A program made the position numbers and the translations under genes. Positions 7,596 through 16,616 of a stretch of DNA of 64,000 nucleotides are shown one piece after another (position 1 is the stretch's first letter; every line of letters starts with the position of its first letter). The DNA comes from Beijerinckiaceae bacterium (GTDB taxonomy: Bacteria > Pseudomonadota > Alphaproteobacteria > Rhizobiales > Beijerinckiaceae): NCBI GenBank assembly GCA_947452455.1, contig CANGBX010000001.1:372001-436000 (forward strand), written 5' to 3'. The notes below the pieces were generated by a model. It was given only the letters and a program-made list of their open reading frames with translations. It was not told where the DNA came from and made no database searches.

Positions 7596-8561
7596 ATGCG
7601 TGATCCATATTCAGTGCTTGGGGTGACCAAGTCGGCCTCGGCCGACGAGGTGAAAAAGGCTTTCCGCAAGCTCGCCAAAAAATATCATCCCGACCAGAAC
7701 ACGGGCGACCCCAAGGCGCAGGAGAAATTTTCGGAAGTCTCCTTGGCCTATGAGATCTTGGGCGACGATAAAAAGCGCGCGCAATTTGATCGCGGCGAGA
7801 TTGATGCCGATGGCAAGCCGCGTGGCTTTGAAGGTTTTGGCGCTGGCGGCCCGTTTCGTCGCGGCGGTAGCGCGGGCGGCGGCAATCCGTTTGAAAATTT
7901 CGAATTCAATATGGGCGGCTCGCCTTTCGGTCAGGCGGGCGCTGGTCGCGGCGGTTTTGATGCGAGCGAATTTTTCGATCTGTTTGGCGGGCGCGGTCGT
8001 GGTCGCCAGCAAAATGCGCAGCCCCAACGCGGCAAGGATGTCGAGCATACAGTGAGCATTTCACTGGGTGATGCCGTCAATGGAACAAGCGCGCGTGTGT
8101 CATTGCCCACGGGCAAGACGCTGGATGTGGCAGTTCCTGCCGGCATTGAAGATGGCAAGCAGATCCGTCTCAAAGGTCAGGGGCATCCGGGGCCGGGCAA
8201 TGGGCCTGCGGGCGATGCGATGATCACGGTGAAGATTGCGCGTCACCCTTTCTTCCGTGTCGAGGGACATGATCTGCGTCTTGATTTGCCGATCACGCTT
8301 TATGAAGCGGTGCTGGGCGGCAAAGTGCAGGTGCCGACTTTATCGGGCAAAGTTGAAATGTCGCTGCCACCAGGCGCGACCGGCGGTAAGACAATGCGCC
8401 TGCGCGGCAAGGGTCTTCCGGCAGGGGAAGGCAAAGCAGCGGGTGATCTTCTGGTCACGCCGCGCATCATCATGCCCGAGCAACCATCAGCCGAATTGGA
8501 AGATTTGATGCGCCATTGGCAAGTGACGCGGCCTTATGATCCGCGCAAAGATCTCGGCTGA
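7596..8561 (+). CDS. DnaJ-type co-chaperone without zinc finger (CbpA-like)
   Basis: Hsp40 co-chaperone that would stimulate DnaK ATPase activity and deliver substrates. Residues 1-65 are a J domain with HPD at 31-33; residues 75-135 are a Gly/Phe-rich linker; from 145 to about 310 lie the two C-terminal substrate-binding beta domains ([19 protein letters not shown], then [13 protein letters not shown]). There are no CxxCxGxG repeats, which separates it from canonical DnaJ and makes it type II, like CbpA. ATG 7596 is chosen rather than 7584 because [10 protein letters not shown] is the normal J-domain beginning. Confidence 0.92.
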
Positions 8562-8974
8562 TCCATCTTTTTATCAATGGTGATGGTTTGTCTGTGCGCG
8601 GTGCCAGGAATAACGCCGCTCGCATAAAGCACGGTTGCAAAAAGCAAGACGCCAAGCGTCAGCGAAATCATTTTCCACTTCAGCGTTTCATCGCGCCCGT
8701 TCGCAAGTGCGGGCAGGCTTTCCACACGATGGGGAAAGGGCGGCGCGCGATGCGTGGGGAGCGCTTGCATCAACAGATCAGGCACAGGTTCATGCGCCAG
8801 CGGCGCGAAAGTCGCACGCAGCCATTGGTCTTGCGCGCGCCAGATTTTCAATTTGCTTTGCATCTCTCCATTGCATTGGACAATGGCAGCCACTTCGGCT
8901 GCGCGCGCGGGTGGTAATTCCTCATCCAGAAAGGCGCAGAGTTCTGCATCCGAGATTTTACGCGGCACGGTCAC
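8534..8974 (-). CDS. Membrane-bound anti-sigma factor
   Basis: A 146-residue protein whose N-terminus ([20 protein letters not shown]) matches the cytosolic anti-sigma domain of the RseA/COG5662 kind, followed by one membrane helix at residues 101-121 and a short periplasmic tail of about 25 residues. There is no HxxxCxxC zinc motif. The GTG start at 8974 overlaps the sigma factor stop (GTGA), so the two are translationally coupled, as expected for a sigma/anti-sigma pair. Its 3' end overlaps the end of the convergent DnaJ-like gene by 28 bp. The signal it senses is unknown. Confidence 0.82.
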
Positions 8975-9429
8975 TTCACGAGCCTCAGATGTGGTGCATG
9001 GATGGCGCTTGATGTGGCGTCCTGCAGACTGTTGGTGAGCATATGGCGCGCGGCCGTCAGGCGACCCATCAGCACGGCGCGGCTGATGCCCAGCGTCTGC
9101 GCGGCTTCATCATAAGAGCAGCCTTCAACCGAAACGAGGATCAGCGCGGCGCGATGGACCACCGGCAAGTCCAGCAAAGCCGCCTCCCATGGATGCGCCT
9201 TGGCGCCGGGGGTTGGGCGGGGCAGGGCGCGGATCTGTGTCAGGCTCGTCAGTTGCGCGCGCAATTTGCGGCACAAGATCGCCTCGCTCTCGGCCGGAGG
9301 CTCGCGCAAAACGGAGTGGATGGCCCTCAGTACAAGCTCGTCTGCCCGCCCCCTAGGCGCGCCACTCAGGGCAGCGGCAAAGCGGCGAAGGCTTGGCAGA
9401 AGCACGGAAAGGCTGGGTGGGGGCGACAA
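8971..9429 (-). CDS. ECF-type RNA polymerase sigma factor
   Basis: A compact 152-residue extracytoplasmic-function sigma factor. Residues 8-45 hold a recognisable but reduced region 2 (LLPSLRRFAAALSG, then RADELVLRAIHSVL). Residues 85-135 hold a clear region 4 helix-turn-helix (DLPVVHRAALILVSVEGCSY, then ISRAVLMGRLTAARHML). The TTG start at 9429 follows an AAAGGG ribosome-binding site. It is coupled to the anti-sigma gene downstream. The shortness of the linker and region 2 makes it one of the smaller ECF factors. Confidence 0.82.
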   Translation of the reverse strand: MSPPPSLSVLLPSLRRFAAALSGAPRGRADELVLRAIHSVLREPPAESEAILCRKLRAQLTSLTQIRALPRPTPGAKAHPWEAALLDLPVVHRAALILVSVEGCSYDEAAQTLGISRAVLMGRLTAARHMLTNSLQDATSSAIHAPHLRLVK

Positions 9430-9661
9430 GAAATAACCCTTTCAAACTAAATTCCTGATCAATAGAAGCACTTTAGCAAACACTTAGCCTATTGACTAGG
9501 GGCCTGTTTGTGATTCGTTCCCGAGCGTTTTTGCCCGTTCCGGGAGGCGCAGGAGCGCTTGCCTTCGCAGCACAGCTCCCTTAAACGCGGGGTGAGTTCG
9601 AAATTGCGTCGTGCCGCTCGCGCTTGAAGCGCTTTTGGCACCCGTTTCTGTCAGGATCCGT

Positions 9662-10489
9662 ATGACCCAAGCTCCCCAAACCCCCGGCATTCTGGCCGGC
9701 AAGCGTGGCCTCGTGATGGGCGTCGCCAACAACCGATCGATTGCTTGGGGCATTGCCAAGTCCGCGCGCGATGCTGGCGCGGAACTGGCCTTCACCTTTC
9801 AGGGCGATGCGTTGGAAAAGCGCGTACGTCCACTGGCCGCGGAACTGGGCGCGCATGTCGTTGGCCATTGCGATGTCACCGATGGTGCCACGATTGATGC
9901 CGTCTTTGCCGAAGTGCAGCGCCTGTGGGGCAAGATCGACTTCGTGGTTCATTGCATCGCCTTCTCTGACAAGGACGAGCTGACGGGCCGCTATGTCGAC
10001 ACGTCGGAAGCCAATTTCAACAAGTCGCTGAACATCTCGTGCTTCTCTTTCACAGCTGTCGCGCAGCGCGCTGAAAAGCTGATGACCGATGGCGGCTCGC
10101 TGCTCACGCTGTCTTATTACGGCGCTGAAAAATGGATGCCCCATTACAATGTGATGGGTGTGGCCAAAGCGGCTCTCGAAGCCTCTGTGCGCTATCTGGC
10201 AGCAGATCTTGGCGAAAAGAACATCCGCGTGAATGCGATTTCCGCTGGCCCGATCAAGACGCTGGCGGCCTCGGGCATTGGCGACTTCCGCTATATTCTC
10301 AAGTGGAATGAATATAACGCACCGCTGCGCAGGACCGTCACGATTGAAGAAGTGGGCGATACTGCGGCCTTCTTGCTGTCCGATATGTCCAAGGGTATGA
10401 CAGGTGAAATCCTGCATGTGGATGCGGGCTATCATGTTGTTGGCATGAAAAACCCCTCCGCACCCGATATCACCGTCGGCAAGGACTGA
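9662..10489 (+). CDS. fabI: Enoyl-[acyl-carrier-protein] reductase (NADH)
   Basis: Catalyses the last reductive step of each fatty-acid elongation cycle. The 275-residue SDR-type protein has the FabI nucleotide loop GVANNRSIAWGIA at residues 20-32 and the catalytic Tyr-x6-Lys motif YNVMGVAK at 162-169, with the additional tyrosines at 152-153. ATG 9662 is preceded by AGGA and gives a normal FabI length; an upstream ATG at 9611 would add 17 unlikely residues. The next gene, a histidine phosphatase, starts 41 bp downstream and may be co-transcribed. Confidence 0.95.
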   Translation: MTQAPQTPGILAGKRGLVMGVANNRSIAWGIAKSARDAGAELAFTFQGDALEKRVRPLAAELGAHVVGHCDVTDGATIDAVFAEVQRLWGKIDFVVHCIAFSDKDELTGRYVDTSEANFNKSLNISCFSFTAVAQRAEKLMTDGGSLLTLSYYGAEKWMPHYNVMGVAKAALEASVRYLAADLGEKNIRVNAISAGPIKTLAASGIGDFRYILKWNEYNAPLRRTVTIEEVGDTAAFLLSDMSKGMTGEILHVDAGYHVVGMKNPSAPDITVGKD

Positions 10490-10530: not shown

Positions 10531-11136
10531 ATGCTCTTCGAACTGCCCCATCGCCTGATCTTTCTGCGCCACGGTGAAACCGACTGGAATGCGGAGGGTC
10601 GTTTGCAGGGCCGCCACGACATTCCGCTTAATCCCAAAGGTCTCGCGCAATCTGAACAGGCGGGACGAACTGTCGGGCGTATCCTCGGGCGCACGCCCGA
10701 AGCGCTCGCGGCTTATGATTTCGTCTCCTCGCCCATGTCACGTGCGCGCCGCACGATGGAGCTGGCGCGTGGCGCTTTGATGCTCGATCCCTTCGCCTAT
10801 CGCCTCGATGAGGCTCTGGTCGAAATCACCTTCGGCCAATGGGAAGGCCTGACTTGGCCCGAGGTGCAGCAGCGTGACCCCGAGGGCGCGAAGGCGCGCG
10901 AAGCAGACAAATGGCACATGCAGCCGCCCGACGGCGAAAGCTATGCCATGTGCGCCGAGCGTCTGCAGCCGTGGCTCGCCTCAATCACACGCGATACGAT
11001 TACTGTCGCCCATGGCGGTGTGGCGCGCTGCCTTTTGCATGTGCTGAGCAATGTGCCTACAGAACGAGCGCCTGTTTGCGATATTTGGCAGGGGCGGGTG
11101 CTTGTTTTTGAGGCGGGCGCCTATCGCTGGATTTGA
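10531..11136 (+). CDS. Histidine phosphatase family protein (phosphoglycerate-mutase-like)
   Basis: A 201-residue member of the histidine phosphatase superfamily. The catalytic RHGE lies at residues 13-16 (FLRHGETDWN), followed by GRLQGRHDIPLN, the acidic residue in LVEITFGQWEG, and the second catalytic histidine in VAHGGVARC near residue 160. The sequence fits the GpmB/CobC-type phosphatases rather than a true cofactor-dependent glycolytic mutase, but the substrate is not evident. It lies just downstream of fabI on the same strand and is followed by a terminator-like hairpin. Confidence 0.88.
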   Translation: MLFELPHRLIFLRHGETDWNAEGRLQGRHDIPLNPKGLAQSEQAGRTVGRILGRTPEALAAYDFVSSPMSRARRTMELARGALMLDPFAYRLDEALVEITFGQWEGLTWPEVQQRDPEGAKAREADKWHMQPPDGESYAMCAERLQPWLASITRDTITVAHGGVARCLLHVLSNVPTERAPVCDIWQGRVLVFEAGAYRWI

Positions 11137-11323: not shown

Positions 11324-14300
11324 ATGACCCACGACCGCCCCGACGCGCCCATTGATGAACCGGCTCTTGCGCTTGCTGTGATGCATGGCGCGCAGCGCGA
11401 TGATTTTCTGCGCGACGAATTGCTGGCCGAGATTTTTGTCGCCTCCGCAAAACGCACGCCCGATGCGGAGTGCCATATCGTTGAAGGGCATCAGTTCACT
11501 TATGCGGAAGTGGATCGCGCCGCGACGTCTGTCGCTCGTGGTCTGTTGCGTCGTGGCATTCGCCCTGGCGATGTGGTGGGCCTATGGATGCCGCGCGGCA
11601 CAGATCTGCTCGTCTCACAAATTGCCATCACCAAGACGGGCGCTGCTTGGTTGCCCTTTGATGCCGATGCGCCGCCTGAGCGCATTGCGGTGTGTCTTGC
11701 CGATGCAGGCGCGAAGCTTCTTCTCGCGGATGAGTTTCATGCGGGCGATCTGACGCTCAACATGCCGTGCCCGATTGTCGGCGCGCAAGATCTCGATGAT
11801 ACGGAAGATGCATCCGAGGTTGATGCGCGCGCATTGGGTGCGCGGCCTGATATGCCGGCCTATCTGATTTACACATCAGGCTCGACGGGCACGCCCAAAG
11901 GCATTGTGATTTCCCATCACAACATTTGCCATTATCTGCGCTCGGCCAACGAGCTGTATGGCATTCGCGCCGATGATGTGGTTTTTCAAGGCGCGTCCGT
12001 TGCCTTCGATCTGTCGATGGAAGAAATCTGGATTCCCTATCTCGTCGGCGCCTCGCTCTTTGTCGCCACGCCCAAGATCATGGGCGAGACAGATGCGCTC
12101 CCTGCTTTGATGGATGAAGTCGGCATTACCGTGCTCGACACAGTGCCGACATTGCTCGCCATGTTGGCGCGCGATGTGGCATCCATCCGTCTCATTCTTC
12201 TGGGCGGCGAAGCCTGCCCGCCGTCTGTGCCACAACGCTGGGCGCGGCCGGGCCGCAAAATCTTCAACACTTATGGCCCCACCGAAGCCACTGTGGTGGC
12301 AACCGCGACGCAAGTGCGCCCCGGTGAGCCGATTACCATCGGCAAGCCGATTGCCAATTACTCCTGCTATATCGTCGATGATGCGCTCAATCTGGTGGGG
12401 CGCGGTGTGGAAGGTGAATTGCTGATCGGCGGACCGGGCGTCGCCAAGGGCTATCTCAATCGTGCGCCGCTGACGGCTGAAAAATTCATCGTCAATCCAT
12501 TTGCCAGCGATGGCCGCGACCCCGTGCTCTATCGCTCAGGCGATGCGGTGGTGATGGAAGCCAATGGCGACATTTCTTTCCGTGGTCGCATCGATGATCA
12601 GGTAAAAATCCGCGGCTTCCGTGTCGAGCTCGGCGAGATTGAAGCCAAGCTCACCGATATTCCGGGCATTGTGCACGCAGCTGTTGTTGTGCGCCGCGAG
12701 TACGAGGTCGATGAACTCGTCGCCTTCCTTGTTGCCGATAAAGCCGCGCAGGTGACAATTGATCCGCGCAATCTGCGCACGATCTTGCGTGAGCGTCTTC
12801 CCGCTTACATGGTGCCGGCGCGTTTTGAAGAACTTGATGAGCTGCCGCGCCTGTCATCGGGCAAGATCAACCGCAATCATCTGAAGCAGATCGATTTGCA
12901 AAGCGTTGCGAACACGGAAGAGCAGGAAGACCCGCGCACGCCCACCGAAGCCAAATTGCTGGACGCAGCCAAAGCCGTGCTGCCGCCACAGGCCATTCCT
13001 TTTGACGCAGATTTCTTCACCGATCTCGGTGGCCATTCGCTGTTGGCCGCGCGTTTTGTCTCGCTCGTGCGCCAAAATGCCGGAATTGAAGGTATTACGC
13101 TGCAAGATATTTACGACACGCGCAATCTGCGTGCCTTGGGCGAATTGCTCGATACAAAATTTGCCCATGTTGCCAAGGCGCGCGATTTGTCTTTCGAGCC
13201 GCCGCCCTTCATGCGCCGTTTTCTCTGCGGCTTGGCGCAGGCGATTGTCTTGCCCTTCATCATTGCCTTGATGACGGCGCAATGGCTTGGCGTGTTTATC
13301 TCTTACATGCTGCTCACAAGCCCCGATGCGAGCATTTTCTCAGAAATCATCTCGCTCTTTGGCGTTTATGTCTGCATCACCATTTTCACCATTGCATTTG
13401 CCATTGTCGGCAAATGGCTGATTTTGGGCCGCACGAAACCGGGGCGCTATCCGCTCTGGGGTGTCTATTATTTCCGCTGGTGGCTGGCGCAGCGTCTGAT
13501 TGGCCTAACCCATCTCAAATGGTTCCAAGCCTCACCCTTGATGCGCATCTATCTGCGCGCCATCGGTGCGCAAGTCGGCGAAGATGCGATCATCAGCGAT
13601 TTTGATTCCGGTGCGATTGATCTCATCACCTTTGGCGAAGGCTCTTGTGTTGGTGGCAAGACCGAGATCACCAATGCGCGCGTGGTCGGTAATGAATTGA
13701 TCATCGAGACGGTTTTTATCGGCAAAGATGCTTATGTCGGTTCGTCTTGCGTGATTGAAGGCGGTGTGCGGCTGGGCCATGGCGCGGAGATCAAAGATCT
13801 GACCGCGGTGCCGGCGGGTACGCATATTCCCGACTTTGAAGTGTGGGATGGTAGCCCCGCGCGCAAAGTCGGCATGAATGATCCCTCCGTCATGGATGAG
13901 TTTCCGCAGACGACGGTGTTGCGCCGCGCCTTGCAGACCTTCTGCTATACGGTTGCCATGCTGGCGATCCCGCCGATCGGCATGCTGCCGATTTTTCCGG
14001 CTTTCTGGGTGTTCAACACACTCGACGAATTTGTCGGCATCGCCTCTTTTGATCGCGTTCTCTATATGGCGATGATCCCGATCCTGGCTTGGCCGACGGC
14101 CTTTGCCATGGTGCTGGTGACGGTGGCTTTCATTGCCTGTGTGCGCTGGATTGTTTTGCCGCGTGTGAAAGAAGGCCGCTATTCGGTTCACAGCTGGTTT
14201 TATTTCCGCATGTGGGTCGTGGCGCTGGCAACCGAGATCACGCTGGAAACACTGACCTCGCTCTTTGCCACCATTTACATGCGCGCTTGGTATCGCCTGA

Positions 14301-15361
14301 TGGGCGCCAAGATCGGCAAGGGCGCAGAGATCTCGACCAATCTGGCGGGGCGCTTCGATCTCATCGAGATCGGCGAGAAGAATTTTATCGCTGATGAAGT
14401 CATGCTGGGTGATGAAGATATTCGCCGCGGCTGGATGGTGCTCAAAAAGGTGAAGACCGGCGCCAATGTTTTTGTCGGCAATGATGCGGTTGTGCCGCCG
14501 GGCTCCATCATTCCCAAAGGCGCGCTGATCGGCATCAAATCCAAGCCGCCGGAAAATCATCTGATTGCGCCCAATGACACATGGTTTGGATCCCCGCCAA
14601 TCAAATTGCCTGTGCGCCAGAAGTTCGATGCTCTGTCGGAAAACTGGACCTACGAGCCGCCGCTCTGGAAGAAATTTGCGCGCGCTGTCTTCGAAGCCGT
14701 GCATGTGTCGCTGTCGACCATGCTGTTCATCACCTTCGGCACTTGGGCGGTGGAATGGTTTGGCGCTGATTTGCTGGCGGGCGAATGGGGTTCGCTCGCG
14801 CTTAATTTCATGATTGCCTCGACCTTCATTTCTGTCGCGGTGACTTTGGTGGTCGTGGCTTTCAAATGGTTGACCATGGGCCGCTATGAACCTGTCGTCA
14901 TGCCCATGTGGTCATGGTGGGCCATGCGCACAGAAGCGGTGGCGGTTCTTTATTGGGGCCTTGCCGGCAAAGTGCTGATCGAACATTTGCGCGGCACGCC
15001 CTTCTTGCCGATGGTCTTGCGCCTCTTTGGCACGAAGATGGGCAAGGGCGTTTACATGAACATGACCGACATCACAGAATTTGATTGCGTGACGGTTGGC
15101 GATTTCGTGGCGCTCAATGGCAGCTGCGCTCTGCAGACGCATCTCTATGAAGACCGCGTGATGAAGGTCGGGCGCATTCAGGTCGGCAATGGCGTGACGG
15201 TGGGTGCCAATGCCACGGTGCTTTATGATACGCACATCGGCGATTTCGCCCGTCTGGGCCCGCTGACCATTGTGATGAAGGGCGAGCACATCCCGCCCCA
15301 CACGGAATGGATTGGTTCTCCGGCTGTGCCGGCGGTGGCTGTGGAATTGTCCGGAAGATAA
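11324..15361 (+). CDS. Pls/PosA-type membrane non-ribosomal peptide synthetase
   Basis: A 1345-residue single-module synthetase. Residues 35-540 are an adenylation domain: A3 (YTSGSTGTPKG) near 182, A4 FDLSMEE with Asp229, A5 YGPTE, A8 DDQVKIRGFRVELGEIE near 425, and the catalytic Lys514 in SSGKINR. Residues 545-620 are a carrier domain with the phosphopantetheine Ser572 (LGGHSLL). There is no condensation or thioesterase domain. Instead, three repeated units follow, each a pair of membrane helices and a left-handed beta-helix domain (roughly 630-830, 866-1083 and 1123-1339). This is the layout of epsilon-poly-L-lysine synthetase and the related poly-ornithine and poly-diaminobutyrate enzymes, in which the C-terminal membrane region joins aminoacyl units into a homopolymer (family knowledge). 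By hand alignment the specificity code is D-L-E-D-I-L-T-V-V-K, whose two extra acidic residues suggest a basic amino acid. No export, hydrolase or immunity gene is adjacent. Confidence 0.87.
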   Translation: MTHDRPDAPIDEPALALAVMHGAQRDDFLRDELLAEIFVASAKRTPDAECHIVEGHQFTYAEVDRAATSVARGLLRRGIRPGDVVGLWMPRGTDLLVSQIAITKTGAAWLPFDADAPPERIAVCLADAGAKLLLADEFHAGDLTLNMPCPIVGAQDLDDTEDASEVDARALGARPDMPAYLIYTSGSTGTPKGIVISHHNICHYLRSANELYGIRADDVVFQGASVAFDLSMEEIWIPYLVGASLFVATPKIMGETDALPALMDEVGITVLDTVPTLLAMLARDVASIRLILLGGEACPPSVPQRWARPGRKIFNTYGPTEATVVATATQVRPGEPITIGKPIANYSCYIVDDALNLVGRGVEGELLIGGPGVAKGYLNRAPLTAEKFIVNPFASDGRDPVLYRSGDAVVMEANGDISFRGRIDDQVKIRGFRVELGEIEAKLTDIPGIVHAAVVVRREYEVDELVAFLVADKAAQVTIDPRNLRTILRERLPAYMVPARFEELDELPRLSSGKINRNHLKQIDLQSVANTEEQEDPRTPTEAKLLDAAKAVLPPQAIPFDADFFTDLGGHSLLAARFVSLVRQNAGIEGITLQDIYDTRNLRALGELLDTKFAHVAKARDLSFEPPPFMRRFLCGLAQAIVLPFIIALMTAQWLGVFISYMLLTSPDASIFSEIISLFGVYVCITIFTIAFAIVGKWLILGRTKPGRYPLWGVYYFRWWLAQRLIGLTHLKWFQASPLMRIYLRAIGAQVGEDAIISDFDSGAIDLITFGEGSCVGGKTEITNARVVGNELIIETVFIGKDAYVGSSCVIEGGVRLGHGAEIKDLTAVPAGTHIPDFEVWDGSPARKVGMNDPSVMDEFPQTTVLRRALQTFCYTVAMLAIPPIGMLPIFPAFWVFNTLDEFVGIASFDRVLYMAMIPILAWPTAFAMVLVTVAFIACVRWIVLPRVKEGRYSVHSWFYFRMWVVALATEITLETLTSLFATIYMRAWYRLMGAKIGKGAEISTNLAGRFDLIEIGEKNFIADEVMLGDEDIRRGWMVLKKVKTGANVFVGNDAVVPPGSIIPKGALIGIKSKPPENHLIAPNDTWFGSPPIKLPVRQKFDALSENWTYEPPLWKKFARAVFEAVHVSLSTMLFITFGTWAVEWFGADLLAGEWGSLALNFMIASTFISVAVTLVVVAFKWLTMGRYEPVVMPMWSWWAMRTEAVAVLYWGLAGKVLIEHLRGTPFLPMVLRLFGTKMGKGVYMNMTDITEFDCVTVGDFVALNGSCALQTHLYEDRVMKVGRIQVGNGVTVGANATVLYDTHIGDFARLGPLTIVMKGEHIPPHTEWIGSPAVPAVAVELSGR

Positions 15362-15503: not shown

Positions 15504-16616
15504 ATGTCGCACAACACCTTTGGCCACCTTTTCCGCGTTACCACTTATGGCGAGAGCCATGGGCCTGCGATCGGCTGCATTGTCGATGGCGTGCCCCCGC
15601 GCGTGCCGTTGACGCCGGAAGATATGCAGGTCTGGCTCGACAAGCGCCGTCCCGGACAGTCGCGTTTCACCACGCAGCGTCAGGAGCCTGATCAGGTGAA
15701 AATTCTCTCCGGTGTCATGGATGATGGCACGGGGCAGATGGTGACAACCGGCACATCGATTGGCTTGCAGATCGACAATGTCGATCAGCGCTCGAAAGAT
15801 TATGGCGAGATCTCCAAGTCTTATCGTCCCGGTCATGCCGATTACACGTATGATGCGAAATACGGCATCCGCGATTATCGCGGAGGAGGTCGCTCATCGG
15901 CGCGCGAAACCGCGATGCGTGTCGCGGCAGGTGGTATTGCGCGCAAAATTCTTTCCGGTGTGACGATCCGTGGCGCGCTCGTGCAAATGGGCCCGCACAA
16001 GATTGATCGTTCGCGCTTCGACTGGAACGAAGTGAACAATAATCCTTTCTTCTGTCCGGATGCGAAAGCGGCCAGCGATTGGGAAGCCTATCTCGATGGC
16101 GTGCGCAAAGCAGGCTCATCTTGTGGTGCTGTGATTGAACTTGTTGCCGAAGGCGTGCCGGCCGGATGGGGCGCGCCCATTTACGGCAAGCTCGATGCAG
16201 AGCTCGCCTCCGCGCTGATGTCGATCAATGCCGTGAAGGGCGTCGAGATTGGCGATGGCATGGCATCGGCTGCATTGAGTGGCGAAGACAATGCGGATGA
16301 AATGCGCATGGGTGCCGATGGCAGACCTGTGTTTTTGTCCAATCATTCCGGCGGCATACTGGGTGGCATTTCGACAGGTCAGCCGATTGTCGCGCGCTTT
16401 GCTGTGAAGCCGACGTCGTCCATTCTGACGCCGCGTCTGTCGGTTGACCGCACGGGCCAAGAAGTGGAATTGCGCACCAAGGGTCGGCATGATCCATGTG
16501 TGGGAATTCGCGGCGTGCCGGTCGGCGAAGCGATGTTGGCGATTGTTCTGGCCGATGCCATGCTGCGTCATCACGGCCAAGTGCTCGCACCGCGCGCTTG
16601 GCCTTTTGATCAATAA
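15504..16616 (+). CDS. aroC: Chorismate synthase
   Basis: Converts 5-enolpyruvylshikimate-3-phosphate to chorismate, the last common step toward aromatic amino acids; requires reduced FMN. The 370-residue protein has the family signatures GESHGPAIG at residues 12-20, [14 protein letters not shown] and [13 protein letters not shown] around 109-135, and the C-terminal [15 protein letters not shown]. Length and start are normal. It is flanked on both sides by palindromic repeats, so it looks like a single-gene unit. Confidence 0.97.

Follow-up and report, generated by a model that had tools for sequence, protein, structure and literature searches.

Which product is made by the putative poly-amino-acid synthetase encoded in a stretch of Beijerinckiaceae DNA, and what purpose does it serve? 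The stretch analyzed (assembly GCA_947452455.1, contig CANGBX010000001.1, positions 372,001 to 436,000; 64,000 nucleotides, hereafter the window) contains an open reading frame (ORF) with an ATG start, 1345 codons and no internal stops, whose product is an enzyme of the Pls/PosA (NAPAA) type by sequence and predicted structure. This membrane-bound synthetase has a single module and probably joins one kind of basic amino acid through isopeptide bonds into a short homopolymer. In the proposed mechanism, the adenylation domain would activate a diamino acid (ornithine in the first place, lysine in the second) and load it onto Ser572 of the carrier, which would be turned into its holo form by the HetI/Sfp-like phosphopantetheinyl transferase (PPTase) of the genome. 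Polymerization would take place in a pseudo-trimeric beta-helix membrane domain: there, His1273 (third unit) would serve as the general base, and in round after round the side-chain amine of one unit would attack the aminoacyl thioester that is loaded next onto the carrier. The polycation would be released without a thioesterase, probably reaching the envelope.

Domain layout and family placement

An earlier reading made from the letters of the window (the sequence-only reading) had described one adenylation domain and one carrier with Ser572, no condensation or thioesterase domain, and three membrane/beta-helix units, and this layout was confirmed. Six Pfam families matched the synthetase at E ≤ 0.001, none of them a condensation or thioesterase domain: AMP-binding (residues 40–378), AMP-binding_C (438–514), PP-binding (552–609), Hexapep (1285–1315) and two further beta-helix families that matched weakly, under their own cut-offs. 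Ser572 was kept in 81 of 81 aligned sequences, i.e., the window protein and the 80 named relatives kept for comparison. The proposed Pls/PosA membership was borne out by the NCBIfam model TIGR02353 (“Pls/PosA family non-ribosomal peptide synthetase”), which covered residues 638–1334 with 607.8 bits against a cut-off of 423.1. In the window genome, a 3.05-Mb assembly that is 95.6% complete, the synthetase was the sole full-length match to itself; five other matches were partial and fell in the adenylation region, with 27–31% identity. Linear gramicidin synthase headed the list of PDB relatives because the scores of two of its domains are summed; it was rejected as the closest one, the score per domain being higher for PosA (381 vs. 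271 bits).

A maximum-likelihood tree served as a further check of the membership. Its 35 rows were the window protein, 18 of the 80 named relatives, L008 and, as references, 15 of the 60 listed plasmid matches. The distant row L007 was left out because its adenylation region could not be aligned. The window protein was placed in a clade of 21 alphaproteobacterial rows (support 100/100) whose neighbor is PosA (L108; 100/99), its sister under the midpoint root used for drawing, and thus beside PosA and not outside the Pls/PosA clade. A Sphingomonas enzyme (97/97) and then the Pls clade were found further out. Against this placement it must be said that the Pls clade joins with 88/86 only and that ten tree rows, PosA included, deviate in composition. 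L108 was recognized as PosA by 100% identity over 143 residues of PDB 8g95, and shared 41% identity with the window protein over nearly the full length. Many plasmid-borne relatives among the matches listed carry the annotation “Pls/PosA family”. In keeping with the earlier label “Rhizobiales-like”, the 80 named relatives are mostly labeled Hyphomicrobiales/Rhizobiales or genera thereof, with a few Rhodospirillales, and the closest of them (L028, 97%) is a metagenome-assembled genome (MAG) labeled Beijerinckiaceae.

Residues 620–1334 were modeled with AlphaFold2, using an alignment of 33 sequences (the window protein and 32 of the 80 named relatives), with a mean pLDDT of 87.2 and a pTM of 0.87. 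The model contains three repeats, each combining two long helices with shorter ones and a series of short strands, and agrees with the three units that had been proposed. A plain hydropathy scan gave five clear transmembrane (TM) regions, with the TM pairs visible only in part; in the model, six TM helices are predicted, as three pairs around three beta-helix units, which is the arrangement expected of the family. The same C-terminal arrangement has been described for PosA, likewise from a model (Patel & Gulick 2023, PMC10522769). A Foldseek search of the PDB with the model returned beta-helix proteins, e.g., maltose/galactoside O-acetyltransferases and gamma carbonic anhydrases. The best E-value was modest (8.7e-05) and the query TM-scores were low (0.08–0.18 among the matches listed); therefore, the search supports the fold of a single unit and not that of the whole domain. 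Across 35 aligned family members, 26 positions were invariant from residue 610 on. H1273 was the sole invariant histidine in residues 610–1345 (35/35), and this conservation suggests that it is catalytic.

Regarding the activation of the carrier, one PF01648 match was found in the window genome, a HetI/Sfp-like protein of 239 amino acids (L107:1456-2175, minus strand) whose best NCBIfam match was HetI (137 bits, below the model cut-off of 370). No separate AcpS was seen in this genome at E ≤ 0.001; either its gene is on sequence that the assembly lacks, or it was overlooked, or the HetI/Sfp-like enzyme serves all carriers.

Inheritance, gene neighborhood and possible role

The distribution of the synthetase was surveyed in 248 family genomes at least 90% complete, the window's own included, counting as matches those with E ≤ 1e-150 to the window protein. 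It was matched in 180 of them, belonging to 33 of the 41 genera, mostly once per matching genome and twice in a few; TIGR02353 was above its cut-off in 179/248. All 22 same-genus rows among the matches listed, own genome included, carried it, and none of the 20 listed out of the 68 non-matching genomes was of the same genus. G248, considered as a same-genus loss, was rejected as such: the synthetase is present there, cut by a contig end. In G142, G273, G211, G191, G188 and G189 the match is listed with one internal TGA despite a full-length open frame, possibly an alignment running beyond the true stop. In the order-wide sample, 51 of 297 genomes were above the TIGR02353 cut-off, 14 of these 51 in the family of the window; outside the family the distribution is patchy, and the order-wide matches need not belong to the window clade.

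In many loci, the synthetase lies inside a fabI-PGM-synthetase-aroC block, as it does in the window (Table 1). Of the 80 named loci, 78 have more than 0.7 kb of sequence upstream, and 48 of these carry fabI or the PGM-like gene at a distance of up to 1.5 kb; on the downstream side, 76 have more than 0.7 kb, and aroC lies at up to 1.5 kb in 40 of them. Both flanks were found within these distances in 33/80. The whole order pdxH-dnaJ-fabI-PGM-synthetase-aroC-HDAC-LDT was observed in most Bosea loci, in Alsobacter and in MAGs such as L031 and L089; the fabI-to-LDT stretch is kept in Lichenibacterium, and a partial order in Methylobacterium and one Microvirga MAG. Among family genomes without TIGR02353 at E ≤ 1e-100 (n = 20), aroC was matched in 19, and 17 aroC regions were examined. 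The PGM-like gene directly adjoined aroC in G086, G076, G095 and G103 (63–113 bases between the matched stretches), and fabI adjoined it, with no PGM match, in G092, G117 and G079; in nine other regions the block was looser or not found within the region, and the remaining one was that of G248 with its truncated synthetase. Moreover, the pairwise distances between synthetases, calculated for 36 loci and the window, tracked those of FabI+AroC (Spearman 0.88, with 0 of 999 permutations as high; FabI vs. AroC alone, 0.72). The simplest reading of these sequence comparisons is vertical descent with losses.

Table 1. Features of the synthetase gene and its neighbors (window positions).
Feature	Position	Strand	Basis or remark
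Enoyl-ACP reductase, fabI-like	9611..10489	+	Pfam PF13561; member of conserved block
Histidine phosphatase (PGM-like), directly upstream	10531..11136	+	Pfam PF00300; 187-base gap to synthetase
Pls/PosA-type (NAPAA) poly-amino-acid synthetase, 1345 amino acids	11324..15361	+	ORF, TIGR02353, tree
Adenylation domain, ~residues 30-521	11411..12886	+	Pfam, pocket alignment
Carrier (PCP) domain, residues 552-609	12977..13150	+	Phosphopantetheine Ser572 at 13037-13039
TM helix pair, unit 1, residues 629-700	13208..13423	+	AlphaFold2 model; hydropathy
C-terminal polymerizing domain, residues 638-1334	13235..15325	+	TIGR02353
Beta-helix, unit 1, ~residues 748-851	13565..13876	+	AlphaFold2 model
TM helix pair, unit 2, residues 865-944, first helix kinked	13916..14155	+	AlphaFold2 model; hydropathy
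Beta-helix, unit 2, ~residues 995-1094	14306..14605	+	AlphaFold2 model
TM helix pair, unit 3, residues 1114-1184	14663..14875	+	AlphaFold2 model; hydropathy passes second helix only
Beta-helix, unit 3, ~residues 1235-1334	15026..15325	+	AlphaFold2 model
QxH motif Q1271-T1272-H1273, third unit	15134..15142	+	Conservation; window letters QTHLYEDR
aroC (chorismate synthase), directly downstream	15504..16616	+	Pfam PF01264; 142-base gap

Since most of the family has retained the gene, seemingly through vertical descent, the polymer more likely has a constitutive role in the envelope or in stress than a use as an occasional antibiotic. The sequence-only reading had hinted at a structural or surface role, and the non-antibiotic part of this hint is backed independently by the near-core inheritance, which argues against a sporadic antibiotic. 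A more far-reaching proposal is that in Beijerinckiaceae and relatives a constitutively made cationic homopolymer, with a monomer new to this enzyme type, would be an ordinary part of the envelope (a counter-ion for lipopolysaccharide, exopolysaccharide or polyphosphate) and not an antibiotic, made by a single-histidine, pseudo-trimeric beta-helix polymerase; put together in this way, it is speculative and must be regarded as doubtful.

Several observations weigh against vertical descent and an envelope role. The match was missing in 68/248 family genomes. Among the 180 matches, at least four (G064, G148, G193, G203) were much weaker, perhaps belonging to another subclade. Neither flank was found within 1.5 kb in 25 of the 80 named loci, although in five of these (L034, L039, L040, L042, L045) fabI and PGM do occur on the upstream side at a distance of a few more kb, and the block is rearranged in four Bosea loci (L069, L083, L087, L098). 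The distance test covers only loci holding FabI, AroC and the synthetase, and is therefore biased towards syntenic loci. Additionally, no exporter is adjacent to the window synthetase, and inheritance is the one line of evidence that speaks for the envelope role.

The foremost alternative is that the synthetase makes a secreted antimicrobial polycation, like the epsilon-poly-lysine of Streptomyces or the proposed antifungal delta-poly-ornithine of Acinetobacter. Antimicrobial activity has been described for poly-lysine and poly-diaminobutyrate, and fungi were inhibited by delta-poly-ornithine of synthetic origin (PMC10522769). PosA is the nearest characterized enzyme, and peptidase or transporter genes lie near some relatives: M1 peptidase in L111 and L121, S41 in L122, and S8 together with an MFS transporter in L112. 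The sequence-only reading had taken the missing transport, hydrolase and immunity genes as a hint against an antimicrobial product, an argument for which the evidence is mixed. No transport or immunity gene is annotated within 6 kb in the PosA record, whose gene table is incomplete; therefore, the window is not unusual in lacking them, and the context is compatible with an antimicrobial too. The PosA record has a hypothetical protein directly downstream and a metal-dependent hydrolase farther on. By contrast, a gene that is near-core, mostly present as one match per genome, often placed in a housekeeping block and tracking its flanking genes does not resemble a sporadic cluster, and an antimicrobial purpose is considered unlikely.

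Other genes near the synthetases were also recorded. The PPTase profile, built from eight proteins (that of the window genome and seven from the loci), had a match in 9 of 95 loci (80 relatives and 15 references), two of which (L093, L102) had not been used in building it. The PPTase gene lies directly beside the synthetase in eight loci and one gene away in L115. Six of the nine loci were among the 25 relatives lacking both flanks and three among the references, with none among the other 55 relatives. The clustering of all flanking ORFs was uninformative, swamped by shadow ORFs of GC-rich genes; the flanks were sampled by a pick weighted by third-position GC content (GC3) in 18 loci and by Pfam on 20 hand-picked proteins, where only the PPTase (4/20) turned up beside the synthetase more than once. 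In three alphaproteobacterial plasmid loci (L112, L115, L120), a GNAT acetyltransferase gene follows directly after the synthetase, or after synthetase and PPTase, and could possibly be involved in polymer modification or self-protection. In Bosea sp. CRIB-10, synthetase and aroC are separated by a gene pair for a Phd-type antitoxin and a PIN-domain protein (L060:12040-12755). Between dnaJ and fabI, the window has on the minus strand (8534-9429) a small sigma-70 region 4 protein (8971-9429, PF08281) and an ORF with no Pfam match (8534-8974), a pair matched only in L027 and L028 among the 80 related loci.

Substrate pocket and candidate monomers

The adenylation pocket of the window synthetase is formed by D229, L230, E233, D272, L292, G294, T316, V324, V325 and K514 (DLEDLGTVVK). 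Among the window protein and the 80 relatives, DLEDIGSVVK was found in 37, DLEDLGTVVK in 36, DLEDIGTVVK in four, DLEDVGSVVK in three and DLESIGSVVK in one. Positions 1–3 are D, L and E in all 80 relatives, and position 4 is D in 79, with S in L099. In PosA, Asp217 and Glu221, the equivalents of D229 and E233, bind the two amino groups, and their mutants were inactive (PMC10522769). A basic amino acid is therefore the likely substrate. Of the undescribed polycationic product claimed by the sequence-only reading, the cationic substrate thus stands as likely, Asp229 and Glu233 being kept, but “undescribed” does not fully apply: both the code and its occurrence throughout a genus have been published, as a predicted NAPAA cluster.

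The window code was identical to none of the reference codes compared. It shares 6/10 residues with PosA (L108, DMEHNGTVSK), 7/10 with Pls (L114, DAESIGTVVK), 5/10 with the code found in diaminobutyrate contexts (L117 and L122, DFECLS[AV]VTK) and 6–7/10 with that of L115, L116 and L120 (DFE[YA]LGTVTK). With 6/10 for PosA, 7/10 for Pls and 7/10 for L116 (DFEYLGTVTK, with Phe at position 2), the code points to no single monomer. The chain-length position, which is Phe in diaminopropionate/diaminobutyrate, Met in ornithine and Ala in lysine synthetases (Patel & Gulick 2023, PMC10522769), is Leu (Leu230) in the window enzyme. Among reported codes, DGEDHGTVVK stands for lysine and resembles one for ornithine, and DMEDVGSVDK is an ornithine code that also accepts lysine (PMC12283262). 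The enzyme is not PosA proper, having six of ten residues of that pocket in common, and ornithine remains compatible; nor is it Pls proper, having Leu230 where Pls has Ala and lying outside the Pls clade; nor does it show the DFEC-type pocket and the diaminobutyrate aminotransferase of poly-diaminobutyrate synthesis. Ornithine would rank first and lysine second, with arginine or a non-standard basic amino acid being possible.

Arginine, or an arginine-like amino acid, would lead to a guanidinium oligomer or another product that is not a diamino-acid isopeptide. The second pocket acid, Asp272, occurs as in arginine codes and so counts against a diamino acid. Glu239 and Asp278 belong to the arginine pattern, reported for arginine-activating domains together with Ile/Val/Leu299 and Gly301 (PMC12283262), and a Bdellovibrionales relative activated L-arginine modestly (PMC10522769). 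However, Thr322 and Val331 depart from that pattern (Ala322, Thr/Asp331), and the clade adjoins the ornithine enzyme in the tree. Guanidinium is, moreover, a poor nucleophile for amide formation. The lysine code DGEDHGTVVK (PMC12283262) is also 8/10 identical to that of the window, and arginine is judged distinctly unlikely.

Less probable still are a degenerate enzyme and another function in place of polymerization, e.g., the single aminoacylation of a lipid or a protein. The predicted beta-helix fold resembles that of acyltransferases, and the literature surveyed gives no polymer from the window clade; yet the pocket Asp/Glu and Ser572 are kept across the clade and H1273 across the family, and the window copy has no premature stop.

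A further option for the monomer would be 2,4-diaminobutyrate or 2,3-diaminopropionate, which have been suggested for synthetases whose second pocket residue is Phe. Such synthetases belong to the same family, a diaminobutyrate aminotransferase adjoins the synthetase in L117 and L122, and the L116 pocket has seven of ten letters in common with the window, but such a monomer is very improbable here, since position 2 is Leu, the DFECLS[AV]VTK pocket shares only half of its residues and lies outside the window clade, and no TIGR00709 match above cut-off was obtained in the window genome, in a search that did not cover diaminopropionate genes.

As a separate observation, ectB, or a diaminobutyrate aminotransferase and an aspartate kinase, lie beside the DFEC-type synthetases of Skermanella (L122) and Streptomyces (L117), a lead from gene context suggesting that this pocket takes diaminobutyrate.

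Comparison with known systems

The synthetase is not new as a kind. Its code had already been flagged as uncharacterized (Patel & Gulick 2023, PMC10522769), and an antiSMASH NAPAA cluster has been reported in Bosea sp. NBC_00550 and seven other complete Bosea genomes, i.e., all the complete ones (PMC10508160). Such clusters were present in almost all genomes of a Methylobacterium set (PMC8561711), and NAPAA is among the clusters that differ between methanotroph families (PMC11964084). No paper on a product or a mutant from the window clade was found in searches of an open-license library. The family-wide survey, the conserved block, the distance tracking of FabI/AroC, the PPTase neighbors and the single invariant histidine are added here. 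Products known from this enzyme type have mostly been discussed as polycations with antimicrobial activity (PMC10522769), a picture that fits poorly with a copy in ~70% of the near-complete genomes sampled from a large family that includes methanotrophs, phototrophs and plant-associated bacteria. The purpose of the polymer becomes testable in tractable, non-pathogenic hosts and, given the conserved single-histidine motif, so does the polymerization mechanism; what deserves following up is that a single bacterial family has retained the gene almost as a core gene.

The Bosea loci are similar to the window, with DLEDLGTVVK in L060, L061, L063, L066 and L067 and usually the same block, although the NBC_00550 cluster belongs to another genus and is an antiSMASH prediction only. 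The Skermanella (L122) and Streptomyces (L117) synthetases share family and layout with the window enzyme and differ in their DFEC-type pocket and adjacent ectB/dat. Pls, the epsilon-poly-L-lysine synthetase of Streptomyces (PDB 7WEW), has the same layout and family model and a pocket common at seven positions, but it forms a separate clade (100/100), has ~31–32% identity, and carries Ala where the window enzyme has Leu at the chain-length position. Both Pls-clade loci with a gene table (two of five fetched) have an M1 peptidase next door, unlike the window. PosA, the delta-poly-L-ornithine synthetase of Acinetobacter baumannii (PMC10522769; PDB 8G95-8G98), has, like the window enzyme, the order adenylation domain, carrier and membrane domain, the Asp and Glu of a diamino-acid pocket, and no obvious dedicated cluster annotated around it. 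The remaining pocket residues differ (DMEHNGTVSK vs. DLEDLGTVVK), and, in contrast to PosA, the relatives of the window synthetase are distinguished by a housekeeping block and near-core presence.

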